A stretch of 64,000 bases of DNA. It comes from Natrinema pellirubrum DSM 15624 (GTDB taxonomy: Archaea > Halobacteriota > Halobacteria > Halobacteriales > Natrialbaceae). The translations under genes were made by a program, and so were the position numbers. The stretch is from NCBI RefSeq assembly GCF_000230735.2, contig NC_019962.1, positions 496,001 to 560,000 of the forward strand. The letters run 5' to 3'. The notes beneath the pieces were generated by a model, which worked only from the letters and a program-made list of their open reading frames with translations, did not search any database and was not told where the DNA came from. Shown piece by piece: positions 1,776 to 30,875 of this stretch; the stretch's first letter is position 1; every line of letters starts with the position of its first letter.

Positions 1776-2064
1776 GTAACGGATTTCGTTCGTCAGGGCT
1801 CGTATGAACGGATTCGGCTTATTTTCGATTTCGGGCCTCTGGGGTTCTATCCTGGTCTAATTTGAGGAACTAATCGCTTATCGAGGGATGCAGATAGACA
1901 AGAAACGACGGTACGACACCAGTAGCGCTGCTAAACCAGACAGCACTCGGGAAACACGATCATCACAGTGTATGAAGGGTTTATTATATTAACTTAATAA
2001 AGATTATTATTCTATTAACTAATTAGAATATTTATATTCAATGCGATTATTGGTTGTTGGTACG
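1776..2064. other. AT-rich intergenic boundary of the accessory island
   Basis: About 290 bases without a gene. Base composition changes sharply here. From about 1970 to 2040 the sequence is almost pure A/T (repeated TTATTA/ATTAAT motifs), with several possible TATA elements directly upstream of the halocin-like gene. No tRNA or obvious attachment repeat was found at this edge. Confidence 0.5.
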
Positions 2065-3002
2065 ATGATAGAAGATCGTAACCTAAACAGACGTAAGGTC
2101 CTACGAAATGCTGCGGCTGCTGGGACTGCATCCCTCCTTGGGATGACAGCCTCGGTTGGTGCAACGCCAGAAGAAGCATCCATCGATATTGATCAGTTGC
2201 TGGAATCGGATAGGATAGAGAAGCTCAAAAAAGAAATCCCTGACCTCAAATTCCGTTCGGAAGACGCCCGCGTACTCGGGGGCAAGAAGGTGTTGTCGCT
2301 ATTCCTGCAAATCACGGGACGGCTCTTACTCGCGCACAAGGAGAGACAGACGCCGCAAGTTTCTATTTCGACGAATGGGTTCGCGGTGTGGACTCTGACT
2401 GGGTTGAAGGAACTGAAGCACGGCTGAGGGTAACGGACGATGAAACGTCTCTGATCCGGAGTGCAACCGATGAAGAGGCTGAGAAATTCCTCCATTCCAT
2501 CGATACAGAAGAACTCGATCGTGAGAATACGGATGTGGCAGTCCAGTCGGAAACTGGCGAAGTCACGATCACTCATGTCGACAGCGAAGATCATCGATAT
2601 GATCGCATTCAGGCGGAACCTGTTGAGAGGGCTGAGGCACAGATCGCAACGGAAAATAACGGCTTGCCTGCTGCTAAAGTTGAGTTAGAGGTCACCGACC
2701 GACAAACCGAGTCCTTCTCAGGGGGGTCTCGAGAAGTTGGGGCGCAGGCATCCTGCGACCAAGATGACGTTGTCTTCTGTGTCATCGAGGCAAGCAGCTG
2801 CCTGCCCTGTGCCGCTGCTACTGCTACAGGGCCGCTTCTTGCCGTCTGTATCCTCTTCGTGTGCCTCGGGTTCCCTGCCGTACCGATCGCAACTGCCCTG
2901 GCAGACATCGGCTGTACCAATGTGGCTGGTTGTACGGCAGATGCGGCCATAGATATCATGAGTGATTTGGCCGACGAGTTAGGTGACGAAATCCCGGTCT
3001 AA
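2065..3002 (+). pseudogene. Halocin C8-like precursor: Tat signal, linker/immunity-type region and Cys-rich C-terminal peptide; frameshifted
   Basis: Two overlapping frames together encode one protein. The first (ATG 2065; an in-frame ATG at 2041 is also possible) starts MIEDRNLNRRKVLRN followed by a hydrophobic stretch to GATPEE, a twin-arginine export signal. It runs through the ARVLGG region, then leaves frame. The second frame is coding-like from about 2283 (GVVAIPANHGTAL) to the stop at 3002. The switch lies in five Gs at 2278-2282; adding one G restores a single protein of about 313 residues. The C-terminal 80 residues hold eight cysteines (C-x7-C-x6-C-x2-C-x12-C-x4-C-x16-C-x5-C) around a small-residue hydrophobic core, as in halocin C8-type microhalocins, which are cleaved from a Tat-exported precursor. 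Family assignment is by pattern, and the spacing differs from halocin C8. The gene may be inactive, phase-variable or a sequencing error. Confidence 0.65.
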
Positions 3003-3013
3003 GACGTCAACAT

Positions 3014-3049
3014 CATCCCGGAGATAGTAGACCTCCCCATTTCGGGATG
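3014..3049 (+). terminator. Stem-loop after the halocin-like gene
   Basis: CATCCCG (3014-3020) can pair with CGGGATG (3043-3049), starting 12 bases after the halocin-like stop codon. It is a candidate transcript end. There is no strong T run directly after it, so the call is tentative. Confidence 0.3.
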
Positions 3050-3073
3050 CACTAAAGGTTTTCAACATGGGGT

Positions 3074-3253
3074 TTTTGAGCGTGTGAAACCACTTTTTGA
3101 TATGGCTTTGGTCGACAGGACTGAGCTGACCACCCAAATCTAATCGAGATCAAATTCCGCTGCGTAGCTCTCGTTAAGCAGGCCTGCGAGCAACATTCCA
3201 AACTCATTCTACGACCTTCTCGTTCCTCAAACTACGCTAACTAGATAGGGACC
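3074..3253 (-). pseudogene. Remnant of an IS6-family transposase and IS end, internally deleted
   Basis: Read on the minus strand, this stretch keeps two blocks that also occur in the full IS6-like element at 5702-6447. One gives the N-terminal pattern LAGLLNESY (compare LADLLSESY). The other gives KKWFHTLK (compare EKWFHTLK near the catalytic Glu). In the relic the blocks are nearly adjacent, so roughly 400 bases have been lost between them, and frameshifts and stops are present. The right edge CTAGATAGGGACC (about 3240-3252) resembles the terminal repeat of the intact copy. It shows that an older IS6-type element sat beside the halocin-like gene. Confidence 0.7.
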
Positions 3254-3255
3254 TC

Positions 3256-3267
3256 AAATATTAATAT
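3256..3267 (+). promoter_or_regulatory. TATA-like promoter stranded by the IS4 insertion
   Basis: AAATATTAATAT lies 23-34 bases before the ATG at 3290, the spacing expected for a leaderless haloarchaeal transcript. That ATG lies inside the 10-bp target duplication of the IS4 element, so this promoter originally faced the small membrane-protein gene now at 4925, 1.6 kb away. Confidence 0.5.
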
Positions 3268-3299
3268 GGTGCGGGTAGAAATTTGATCTATGACTTGGG

Positions 3300-4924
3300 C
3301 ATCTGTTCTAGTTTAGTGACGGAGTGAAGCAGGATCTCAGCGGAGACTATACCGAATTGAGGCGGATTAGCTCAGGAGACTGGGTTCGCTGGAGCAGGCA
3401 GTCGCTGATTTGTTGTGTGATACCTTCGAGGCGGCGCACTCACAGCCGTGAGTGCGTCGCCGTTCCAGCGCTGCCGCTATCGACACAGGTGCTTCCCCGG
3501 TCGTCAGGCGAGTTCGTTACCAGAACTCGCCTGACTCAACCTGCTCACGTAACCGCGGTCGATGCGGATTTGGATCACGTGAAGCCCACAGCAACAACTC
3601 ATCTAAATCCGGAAGTTCGTACCCTAAATCGAGCATCACGTACAACTGAATCAGGTGTGAATGGCGTTCGACAGCGTGAGAACATCGTCGACGAGGAAGT
3701 TGCGGCGACGACGCTGTGGCGTCGTCGGCGCTTTCCCGTTGTTTCACGTCCAGTTTCCGGAGTTCATCGACGATAACACGGCTCATCAGCAGTGAGATTG
3801 CGGCCATGATGACCAGAGCTTCGATGATGTACGGATCGGTCGTGTTGATTTCGTCAAGTCCGAAGCGTGATTTCAGTTCTTTGAACAATAATTCTATTTC
3901 CCAGCGCGCCCGATAGAGCTGTGCGATATCGGGCGCACTATAGTCGTCTTTCGAGAGATTTGTCAAATAGAGATGGTACTCTTCAGTATCCTCGTTCCAA
4001 ACACCGACCAGTCGGAACGTTCGGGTCGTGCTGGTGCACGACCCTCGCTTTCGCTCGAACGAGAGGGTGATGCGAACATCGATTTCCTGTCGCTGCAGGT
4101 CGTCAAGGACGTCCTGCAGCGACTCTCCTTCGAGCGGGATACTGTTCCCCCGCCACGTCCGGAGCTCTTCGACGATCTCGAAGTTTGCGTCGTCTTTCAC
4201 ACGGGAGACGAACCAGCCGTTATTCTGGTCGATGCGGTCGAACAACCAGAAGTCGTAGAAACCGAGATCGAGCAAGACAAGTGCGCCAGCTACCCACTCG
4301 CCGGTGGGTAGCTGGCTCCGTTCTTGGGTTTTAGCGTCAGTTGTTCGGTACCGTGTTGGAAGGCCAGTTGAGAGTGATTCTGTTAGGTGAAGTTTCAGAC
4401 CGGCCTGATCGTCACCGGTCGCAGCGTACACATCCGCGGCGTCTTGATAGAGAGAAACAATGCTCCCATCGGCAATGAGGACGTCTCGAAAGCGTTCGAG
4501 ACGTCCGCTAAGGTCGGCATTTCTGGTATCGAGATTCTCGATGGCATCATCGAGAATCTCTCGAAGGAGTGCAACGAACGGTGGAGAGAACCACCCGTGG
4601 AAGGTTGCATAGGAGAGTTCATCGCAGTCGGACATTTCGACGAATCGTTCGAGAAAAGCCTGTACAGATCGGTCTGACCCAGCAGCGAAGCCAAGTGAAA
4701 GCGTGTAGAACAGCGCAACAGCGTCGAATTTCCGTTCACGCTCGACGAGATTCGTTGCGCGAGCGCGCTCGCGCAACTCATCGGAGGGAAACGCTCTTTG
4801 AATCCGATCAACAATCACTGAATCCGGTGGGGAGTAAGTCACACTATCCACCGGATTTCTCTGACTGGTAGTTACAACGATATCTAATCAGACGACGGTA
4901 CACTCTGCTAAACTAGAACGGATG
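3300..4924 (-). mobile_element. Complete IS4-family (ISH8-type) insertion sequence
   Basis: The element is 1625 bp. Its ends are 17-bp terminal inverted repeats, CATCTGTTCTAGTTTAG (3300-3316) and the complement of 4908-4924, with one mismatch. It is flanked by a perfect 10-bp direct repeat, ATGACTTGGG, at 3290-3299 and 4925-4934. A 10-bp duplication and a CAT.. terminus fit the ISH8 group of IS4. It carries one transposase on the minus strand. The preserved target duplication means the insertion has not been rearranged since it landed. Confidence 0.93.
3517..4851 (-). CDS. IS4-family transposase (ISH8 group)
   Basis: A 444-residue DDE transposase that cuts and inserts the surrounding 1.6-kb element. 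Visible catalytic motifs are IADGS (first Asp, about residue 127), DLGFYDFWLFDRI (second Asp) and the IS4 Y-R-E-K signature YRARWEIELLFKELK near residue 320. The frame is intact from ATG to stop, so the enzyme is probably active. Unlike the IS6 neighbour it shows no stop or frameshift. It is transcribed towards the halocin-like gene. Confidence 0.93.
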   Translation of the reverse strand: MDSVTYSPPDSVIVDRIQRAFPSDELRERARATNLVERERKFDAVALFYTLSLGFAAGSDRSVQAFLERFVEMSDCDELSYATFHGWFSPPFVALLREILDDAIENLDTRNADLSGRLERFRDVLIADGSIVSLYQDAADVYAATGDDQAGLKLHLTESLSTGLPTRYRTTDAKTQERSQLPTGEWVAGALVLLDLGFYDFWLFDRIDQNNGWFVSRVKDDANFEIVEELRTWRGNSIPLEGESLQDVLDDLQRQEIDVRITLSFERKRGSCTSTTRTFRLVGVWNEDTEEYHLYLTNLSKDDYSAPDIAQLYRARWEIELLFKELKSRFGLDEINTTDPYIIEALVIMAAISLLMSRVIVDELRKLDVKQRESADDATASSPQLPRRRCSHAVERHSHLIQLYVMLDLGYELPDLDELLLWASRDPNPHRPRLREQVESGEFW

Positions 4925-5182
4925 ATGACTTGGGAAGATATCGGCTGGAGAGATCCGAAAGACTTCGTGATAGTTATGGGTAAAATACTTGTAGCATTAG
5001 CCGGTGCGATGCTACTGACCGGTGTTCTGATGACGGTTCTTCCGTATAGTGACTACAGTCCACAAACTCCAGAGAGAGTCATAGTCGTTAGCGTATTTTA
5101 TGCTGCTTGGCTGCTTTTGATGCTCAAGCTTCTGTTTGGAAAGTTTCTTCCACTGGGAATGTTCAAAACGCGTGAGGCGTAG
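4925..5182 (+). CDS. Small two-helix membrane protein of the accessory island
   Basis: An 85-residue protein with two hydrophobic helices, IVMGKILVALAGAMLLTGVL and, after a polar loop, VVSVFYAAWLLLMLKLLFG. The ATG at 4925 is inside the IS4 target duplication, and an extra in-frame ATG (4922) was created by the IS end. Its original TATA box is now at 3256-3267, beyond the element. I do not recognise the family. Small membrane proteins beside bacteriocin-like genes are often immunity or export factors, but here that is only a guess from position. Confidence 0.55.
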   Translation: MTWEDIGWRDPKDFVIVMGKILVALAGAMLLTGVLMTVLPYSDYSPQTPERVIVVSVFYAAWLLLMLKLLFGKFLPLGMFKTREA

Positions 5183-5326
5183 TATTTAGTTAGTCGACCC
5201 TGTTCTGTACTCTGTAACTCGAACAGAACGATGGCGTCGTGATGCTCCAGTTGGCCACCTAGGGATCTGCGTTAAAACTGCAACGGTCGTACTTCCGCTC
5301 AGAGACCCGAATTCGCACCCACTGAG

Positions 5327-5470
5327 GTAACAATTAGCGCCCTCGATCGTGAATCGGGGGAGATGCACTGGTACTACGTATTCGATTTAGGCCCTAACGT
5401 GATGGTACCACCGGTACTGGTTGATGGAACTGTATTCTCACAGCCAGTAGTATGGACGGTCTCGGTGCCT
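5327..5470 (+). pseudogene. Fragment of a PQQ-type beta-propeller protein
   Basis: One frame reads TISALDRESGEMHWYYVFDL and then VMVPPVLVDGTVF before a stop near 5480. The pattern ALDxxxGexxW....PPVLVDGTVF is the repeated blade of PQQ/YncE-like beta-propellers. A stop at 5273-5275 closes the frame upstream, so only about one blade survives. This is read by motif only. It fits the picture of a region eroded by transposition. Confidence 0.4.
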
Positions 5471-5510
5471 TCGGCGACGTGACCACACGAGATAGCTGAA
5501 TATTTGAACA

Positions 5511-5596
5511 TCGGCGTACTCCTAACCTGCAATCACTAAGCATTCTGCCCAATTCGGCGTACTCCTAACCTGCAATCACTAAGCATTCTGCCCAAT
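5511..5596. repeat. Perfect 43-bp tandem duplication
   Basis: The unit beginning TCGGCGTACTCCTAACC and ending CTGCCCAAT occurs at 5511-5553 and again, without a mismatch or spacer, at 5554-5596. Perfect identity in a non-coding stretch indicates a recent slippage or recombination event. Part of the unit (ATTCTGCC) is complementary to GGCAGAAT just downstream near 5620, so a hairpin may have promoted it. Confidence 0.95.
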
Positions 5597-5701
5597 CACC
5601 GAATCATGTGGGAAATTATGGCAGAATCCCCTCCCCAAATAATTTCCACATACTAATAATCCCGAACCAGAAGGGATGTTAATTCTACATATATAGGAAA
5701 C

Positions 5702-6447
5702 GGCACTGTCTAGTTCAGCACCTCCTCGGCCGGCGTCTTTCCGTCGAGAGCTTGATGCGGTCTCTGACGGTTGTAGTAATGCATGAACTGTTCAAGCCAC
5801 CCGCGGACGTTCGACCGACTTCCCACCCACGAAGTATGGAAGCGGTCGATCAGTATTTTGAGTGTGTGAAACCACTTTTCGATGAGGTTTCGGTCGGTAT
5901 AGTTGACCCGACCGCTCAATCCTACTCGAGAGAGGGCAGTCCGATAGCCGAACTGATCGACGAGAAACTCAGCCTCGGAGAGATCGTGTTTCTCGTCCAG
6001 TCGCTGCAGAAATGCAGCCGCCGGATCAGTGTCATGCCGACCAAATAACGCGACGTCAAGAATCAGTTTTGTCTCGGTGTCTATTGCAGCGTACAACCAA
6101 GACCACTCGCCGTTTATCTTGACAGCGGTCTCGTCAACCGCGACCCGCTTTGGCTGCGCCTCAGGCGGGTCGCAGCCGCTGTCAGCTAGCCGATGAACCC
6201 AATTCTAGACAGCACCATGAGAGCGTTCAACGCCTAATTCAGCCAGAATCGTTGTTGTCTCTCGAAGCGAACAACCAGTCTGATGGAGACGGACGGCGAA
6301 CGCCCTGACGGGCGTCGCCGTCCGCTCGTTCTCCCAAGATTCTTCTAAATCCCCGTCATAACTCTCACTGAGCAGGTCTGCGAGCATCTCTCGGCAAGTT
6401 ACTCAACGACCTGCTCACTTCTCAAACTGACTCAACTAGACAGTGCC
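5702..6447 (-). mobile_element. IS6-family (haloarchaeal IS240-like) insertion sequence
   Basis: The element is 746 bp. It is bounded by inverted repeats GGCACTGTCTAGTTCAG (5702-5718) and its near-perfect complement ending at 6447 (one mismatch in 17). It encodes a single transposase on the minus strand, which is interrupted by an amber codon. No 8-bp target duplication is visible: the flanks are TAGGAAAC on the left and CTCTCAAC on the right. That would follow from recombination between IS6 copies, and a relic of a related copy lies at 3074-3253. Confidence 0.88.
5710..6387 (-). pseudogene. IS6-family transposase with an internal amber stop
   Basis: The minus strand encodes MLADLLSESYDGDLEES through SLRETTTILAELGVERSHGAV, then TAG at 6205-6207. 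It continues in the same frame with NWVHRLADSG, VAVDETAVK (catalytic Asp), DQFGYRTAL (second Asp region), NLIEKWFHTLK (catalytic Glu) and YYNRQRPHQALDGKTP at the end. One C-to-T change from CAG, or a change from TGG, explains the stop. The restored protein would be about 225 residues, the normal size for IS6 enzymes. A shorter product could begin at the Met ending at 6096 but would lack the helix-turn-helix and the first Asp. Confidence 0.85.
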
Positions 6448-6480
6448 CTCTCAACTATTTTCTCACCGAATACAATTGAG

Positions 6481-6615
6481 ATGAATAGTGGTTCAACCAC
6501 ATTTCCCTTAACAGACTCCAGAAACACGATGAAACAGGCTGGCCACACGACGGCTATATCATCTCATCCGGAAATAGGTGCAGGTAATGGAAGTATCTAT
6601 TATGTGAAATTCTAA
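6481..6615 (+). CDS. Short 44-codon reading frame, doubtful
   Basis: An ATG at 6481 opens a frame of 44 residues ending ATT..TAA at 6615, with MNSGSTTFPLTDSRNTMKQA at its start and NGSIYYVKF at its end. It lies just outside the right end of the IS6 element. It may be a real small protein of the island or the tail of a gene destroyed by the element. No ribosome-binding site or family supports it. Confidence 0.2.
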   Translation: MNSGSTTFPLTDSRNTMKQAGHTTAISSHPEIGAGNGSIYYVKF

Positions 6616-6681
6616 CTCACTATACGTGCGCCTGCGTATCCCCCCAAGAAGTATTATCGTGTAGCCCATATTATTTCCAAA

Positions 6682-12998: not shown

Positions 12999-13078
12999 AC
13001 GGCATCGCTCGAACAGCGGGCGTATCAGCGTTCCGACTTCGGATCGCCGGACTGTCGCGACGGCTGTCGTGTCCGCGG

Positions 13079-30797: not shown

Positions 30798-30875
30798 GGT
30801 TCCCCGTGGGTGACCGGCGGGGAAGTAACCGCCGGTCTCGGGAGCGCAGGAGGCGGCTCCAGTCGCCGGACGGGG

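Follow-up and report, generated by a model that had tools for sequence, protein, structure and literature searches.

A frame-broken gene, probably for a halocin S8/R1-type microhalocin precursor, beside an ISH32 insertion in Natrinema pellirubrum DSM 15624

The window, i.e. the whole stretch of 64,000 nucleotides that was analysed (G000:C1:496001-560000), belongs to the 4.35-Mb genome of Natrinema pellirubrum DSM 15624, which is assembled in three contigs. Close to its left end lies a low-GC segment of ~4.7 kb (1889-6652) containing a putative halocin gene, the insertion sequence ISH32, a small membrane-protein gene and IS remnants. The halocin gene is distributed over two frames of the forward strand. 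Frame A opens with the ATG at 2065 and is terminated by the TGA at 2425-2427 (120 codons). Its opening residues (MIEDRNLNRRKVLRN...) are those of a twin-arginine signal, and the signal peptide (NRRKVLR...ASVGA) occupies positions 2065-2163. This region matches TIGR01409 weakly, below the cut-off, and its RR pair is invariant across the family. The signal is followed by the first part of a prodomain and then by out-of-frame residues up to the premature stop (2065-2427). Frame B is open from 2283 to 2999 (239 codons), with TAA at 3000-3002; when the bases of this stretch were shuffled 20,000 times, the frame never stayed open. It harbors the remaining prodomain (2283-2750), a predicted active segment of ~30 residues with four Cys (SCDQDDVVFCVIEASSCLPCAAATATGPLL, 2751-2840) and, together with the stop, a C-terminal extension with four more Cys (2841-3002). 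A TATA-like element, TTTATATT, is located on the same strand at 2031-2038, ~30 bp upstream of the ATG at 2065, and the motif TTTATAT is found upstream of the homologue from plasmid pAArc1-01 as well. The position of the element is consistent with a near-leaderless haloarchaeal transcript starting from 2065 and not from 2041.

The sequence-only reading of this DNA had proposed that the Tat-signal frame and the frame from 2283 fit together if one base is added. Alignment with the intact homologue of pAArc1-01, which spans positions 2013 to 3095 at 84% DNA identity, bears this out: the sole frame-breaking gap in the gene is a single base at 2278-2283. The site falls within a short run of Gs on the forward strand that encodes Gly-Gly and is one base shorter than in the intact homologues. 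At the protein level the alignment runs straight through the gap (ARVLGG / GVVAIPANHG in the window, ARAIGG / GIVAIPANHG in the homologue), in agreement with the smooth junction predicted earlier. Judged from these alignments, frames A and B make up a single gene that lacks one base at 2278-2283 relative to its intact homologues. The first stop does not correspond to a natural protein end, since the intact homologues continue uninterrupted past the site of the break; these comprise the proteins of pAArc1-01 (312 residues), genome G033 (309 residues) and Haloferax larsenii (338 residues), among others.

Over frame B, intact full-length homologues are 84% and 61% identical to the window gene. 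The nearest of them is AArc1_RS00195 (WP_228442289.1) on plasmid pAArc1-01 of Natrarchaeobaculum sulfurireducens, with 84%. It shares with the window gene the same downstream membrane gene (64% identity). It differs in that its frame is uninterrupted, that ISH32 does not separate the two genes and that it is located on a plasmid instead of a large contig. The predicted 30-residue peptide differs from that of the pAArc1-01 protein at one position, and dN between the two genes is 0.061 for the tail and 0.124 for the prodomain. Close relatives are uncommon: among 392 genomes of the order, 8, this one counted, contain a match to frame B at E <= 1e-3. The window gene is also matched by Halobacterium plasmid proteins of GN101, KBTZ03 and BOL4-2 (E 2e-7 to 4e-7); the GN101 and KBTZ03 proteins consist of 311 residues each, and the GN101 protein is ~23% identical to the window gene (E 4e-7). 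The wider family, all from Halobacteria, comprises 26 aligned members, for which no Pfam or NCBIfam model was found beyond the Tat signal, and a search of IMG/VR returned no relative. Several paralogues of the wider family are located within 7 kb on contig 17 of Haloferax larsenii (L101, ~302893-309793).

The model of the pAArc1-01 homologue contains one confident domain of alpha+beta type (residues ~36-217, block means mostly 83-96), within which the counterpart of the 2283-2750 region lies; the tail of the model is unreliable. No significant match to this model was found in the PDB with Foldseek. With VIA-align, four BLIP/PepSY-like proteins from bacteria came out on top (Z 6.2-6.6, rmsd 3.0-3.8, 113-121 aligned residues), and cystatin-like proteins were among the top rows for the halocin C8 precursor (Z 5.1-5.6). 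Both results are at the background level expected for such models, and the assignment of a fold to the prodomains, or of one fold shared by the two, was dropped.

The tail of the rebuilt protein contains eight Cys, as counted earlier, and 22 residues follow the last of them. In eight intact members six Cys are invariant, among them all four in the predicted active segment. The sequence-only reading had called the gene halocin-C8-like. The window gene does share with the halocin C8 precursor (ProC8/HalI) a Tat signal with the RR motif, a prodomain that opens with two helices and is modelled as a separate domain (the immunity role, played by HalI in C8, would be putative here), and a hydrophobic tail rich in Cys and small residues. 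Moreover, the precursor profiles can be aligned with C8 by hhalign (96.6%), but this is confined to the signal and first helix (57 columns). The likeness does not extend to the peptide. The halocin C8 domain model TIGR04449 matches neither piece of the window gene nor its intact homologues, and comparison of the tail profile with C8 tails gave a probability of 1.2%, no better than a reversed control. The C8 peptide of ~76 residues has ten Cys and stands at the end of its precursor, whose tail ends in or near a Cys, whereas the peptide of the window gene would be internal. It is therefore extremely improbable that the gene is a member of the C8 family with a divergent tail, and the label has to be withdrawn. 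The accompanying suggestion of a family distinct from C8 holds good; the gene groups instead with the GN101 protein, which is probably of the halocin S8/R1 type. A scan of the genome with TIGR04449 gave four other loci over the cut-off, all on the same contig (L028-L031: 3772296-3772505, 2343158-2343370, 2069264-2069485 and 354391-354606). These four genes may still provide the strain with C8-type halocins.

It is more than two decades since halocin S8, from strain S8a, and halocin R1 became known, and S8 is reportedly excised from inside a 34-kDa precursor of 311 residues, with 230 and 45 residues flanking it. According to the title of the S8 paper, the peptide is 36 amino acids long. A mass of 3.6 kDa is tabulated for halocin S8, and 3.8 kDa is given for halocin R1 from strain GN101 (PMC11509114). 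The GN101 homologue of the window gene is encoded on megaplasmid 2 and has 311 residues and a mass of 33,976 Da. Its four-Cys segment at residues 231-266 comprises 36 residues and divides the protein into parts of 230, 36 and 45 residues. The segment has a mass of 3581 Da (3781 Da for 38 residues) and thus fits both S8 and R1 in size. The gene for this 311-residue protein is presumably the R1 gene itself.

The first four Cys of the window tail correspond to the four invariant Cys of the GN101 segment, with which the predicted segment at 2751-2840 was aligned; its boundaries are approximate and follow from this alignment. In the window gene, too, the four-Cys segment is thereby placed between a long N-terminal and a shorter C-terminal part. 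The intact homologues of the window gene are likewise Tat precursors of ~311 residues with a small internal four-Cys peptide followed by a C-terminal extension, and there are plasmid-borne relatives. On the other side, the segment is ~30 residues long instead of 36, identity to the GN101 protein is low, and the window copy is frameshifted. The window gene is also accompanied by the gene for a two-helix membrane protein, whereas none was found beside the Halobacterium genes. Taken together, the identity of the strain, the size of the segment and the architecture argue strongly for membership of the window gene in the S8/R1 type.

No model in Pfam or NCBIfam gives a functional match to the gene, its intact homologues, the two-helix membrane protein or a nearby accessory family, and an antimicrobial role of the close members is itself a candidate one. 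This would also be compatible with a secreted Cys-rich protein of another function, such as adhesion, metal binding or signalling. Such a function is rather improbable, given that GN101, the producer of halocin R1, carries one member on a megaplasmid and that this member has a segment of the right size; in addition, location on plasmids, a patchy distribution and frequent breakage are in keeping with bacteriocin genes. A precursor of an S8/R1-type halocin is thus preferred over a protein of another function. Extracellular processing has been reported for halocins S8 and C8 (PMC12893001). Activation of a haloarchaeal precursor by extracellular cleavage is also described for HFX_0892 / HmHapP of Haloferax mediterranei (PMC12893001), which, going by this description, differs in that the active part is an N-terminal helical piece.

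The frame break was left open by the sequence-only reading between recent inactivation, a phase-variable homopolymer switch and a sequencing error. Relative to pAArc1-01, dN/dS is ~0.18 before the break, 0.40 after it and 0.33 in the tail, and neither half of the window gene has a second lesion. Both frames are thus under constraint, which means that the break is either recent or an artefact. A single base missing from a short stretch of G/C is a classic sequencing or assembly error, and the clean, constrained remainder of both frames would be expected if the gene were in fact intact and the strain made the full precursor. The control was a comparison of 45 coding frames from the neighbourhood (15.8 thousand residues, ~47 kb) with those of a 95%-identical relative, G075. 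Two frame differences of the window were detected, at 13073 (a deletion of 4 bp) and near 30850 (a stretch of low complexity), but no simple one-base homopolymer break. Nine of the ten ISH32 copies in the genome are free of any indel, although these repeats may have been polished together. Furthermore, three more family members have been broken independently: the gene is split by one base on pHME505, truncated in G073 and reduced to an N-terminal remnant in G272. The partner gene in the window has also been struck by an IS. An error in the G tract is therefore unlikely, albeit with an appreciable residual chance, and the evidence from this one assembly leans clearly towards real inactivation.

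The remaining possibility, a phase-variable G-tract switch or a programmed ribosomal or transcriptional slip joining the two frames, would suit a break within a homopolymer flanked by two constrained frames. However, the tract has five Gs only. It had been suggested that intact homologues might show six Gs at this site; intact homologues do exist and are in frame, but their sequence differs (GGAGGGG in pAArc1-01, GGGGGA in G033), so the site is not conserved. In the remaining broken relatives the damage lies at different places and is of different kinds. A switch is thus very improbable, and recent real inactivation is retained as the explanation of the break.

The frequency of third-position differences from pAArc1-01 changes at the break, being 22 of 71 (31%) before it and 41 of 239 (17%) after it (p 0.018). 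This hints faintly at a recombination junction, i.e. at a mosaic origin of the 2065-2283 and 2283-2999 parts. With respect to the pHME505 copy in Haloferax mediterranei (L013:5764-6823), its frameshift is at a different place from that of the window gene, only the first part is annotated, and no second record of the split gene was found. The deletion at 13073 is present relative to both G075 and a further genome, G062, and shifts the frame of a coding-like ORF.

The segment that carries the gene is absent from G075, the closest syntenic relative: homology stops at 1888 and restarts at 6653, and the two points are ~127 bp apart in G075. The GC content is 0.50 for positions 1889-3299, compared with 0.668 for 8106-64000. 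Absence from the relative and low GC indicate that the segment was very probably imported. It includes a complete ISH32 of the IS4 family on the reverse strand (3300-4924, 1625 bp; transposase at 3517-4851, inverted ends at 3300-3316 and 4908-4924). The element is flanked by a 10-bp target-site duplication, ATGACTTGGG, the left copy of which is at 3290-3299 and the right copy at 4925-4934. Ten copies of ISH32 are present in the genome and the element is 100% identical to that of Halobacterium salinarum, so the insertion is probably recent. A tandem repeat stretch (GGCGTACTCCTAACCTGCAATCACTAAGCATTCTGCCCAAT) occupies 5510-5600 and adjoins a transposase-like gene at 5710-6387 that is split into two frames.

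ISH32 is inserted between the precursor gene and a gene on the forward strand (4925-5182) for an 85-residue protein with two predicted membrane helices, and the right copy of the duplication includes the start codon of the latter. An ORF of 86 codons begins at 4922; it was trimmed to the ATG at 4925, because this codon belongs to the target duplication and is thus older than the IS. The gene is kept downstream of the precursor in pAArc1-01 and in G033 (68-72% identity), and this conservation makes the protein a candidate immunity protein. Members of its family also occur alone in several genomes, with no precursor in the vicinity, so that its role may be a different one.

The locus as a whole is probably best explained by a horizontally acquired and recently inactivated gene for a microhalocin precursor of the halocin S8/R1 type, the decay being called recent on account of the constraint in both frames. 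Intact versions would be exported by the Tat pathway as proteins of ~310 residues, in which a signal peptide is followed by a prodomain of ~180 residues, then by the short four-Cys peptide and finally by a C-terminal extension. The peptide would be released outside the cell by cleavage on either side, as has been reported for S8, a step that is proposed by analogy with the described processing of S8 and C8 (PMC12893001). The released peptide is predicted to kill other haloarchaea. The two-helix membrane protein would probably protect the producer or serve as another accessory, and ISH32 would have separated it from the precursor. The loss of one base at 2278-2283 would then end translation at 2427, upstream of the peptide, leaving only a useless stump of 120 residues.

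A broader scheme may be put forward tentatively, with a modest chance of being correct. S8/R1-type halocins may form a widespread, uncatalogued haloarchaeal family with protection in two parts: a prodomain that masks the peptide and a separate two-helix membrane immunity protein, of which non-producers have orphan copies. In N. pellirubrum, ISH32 would first have cut off the immunity gene, and the frameshift would then have lost the toxin.

As a pseudogene the broken copy is nothing out of the ordinary; its value is that it gives access to a bacteriocin family that is uncatalogued, and to the probable partner gene of that family. The S8/R1 family has no Pfam or NCBIfam model, and the intact homologues now supply a family alignment, along with a candidate immunity partner and several independently broken copies. 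With these it becomes possible to test how a producer is protected from an S8/R1-type bacteriocin and how frequently genes of this kind disappear.

Near several S8-type genes and one C8-domain gene a protein of 300-323 residues is encoded that has predicted membrane helices and the motif HQPEYTGENRCEPCTVLN (L012:9860-10759, L014:4257-5213, L015:3543-4508, L101:11178-12146 and L040:1-759). It is present in 124 of 125 Natrialbaceae-like genomes and hence is not specific; extra copies stand beside halocins. It is possible that this protein is a shared halocin maturation factor.
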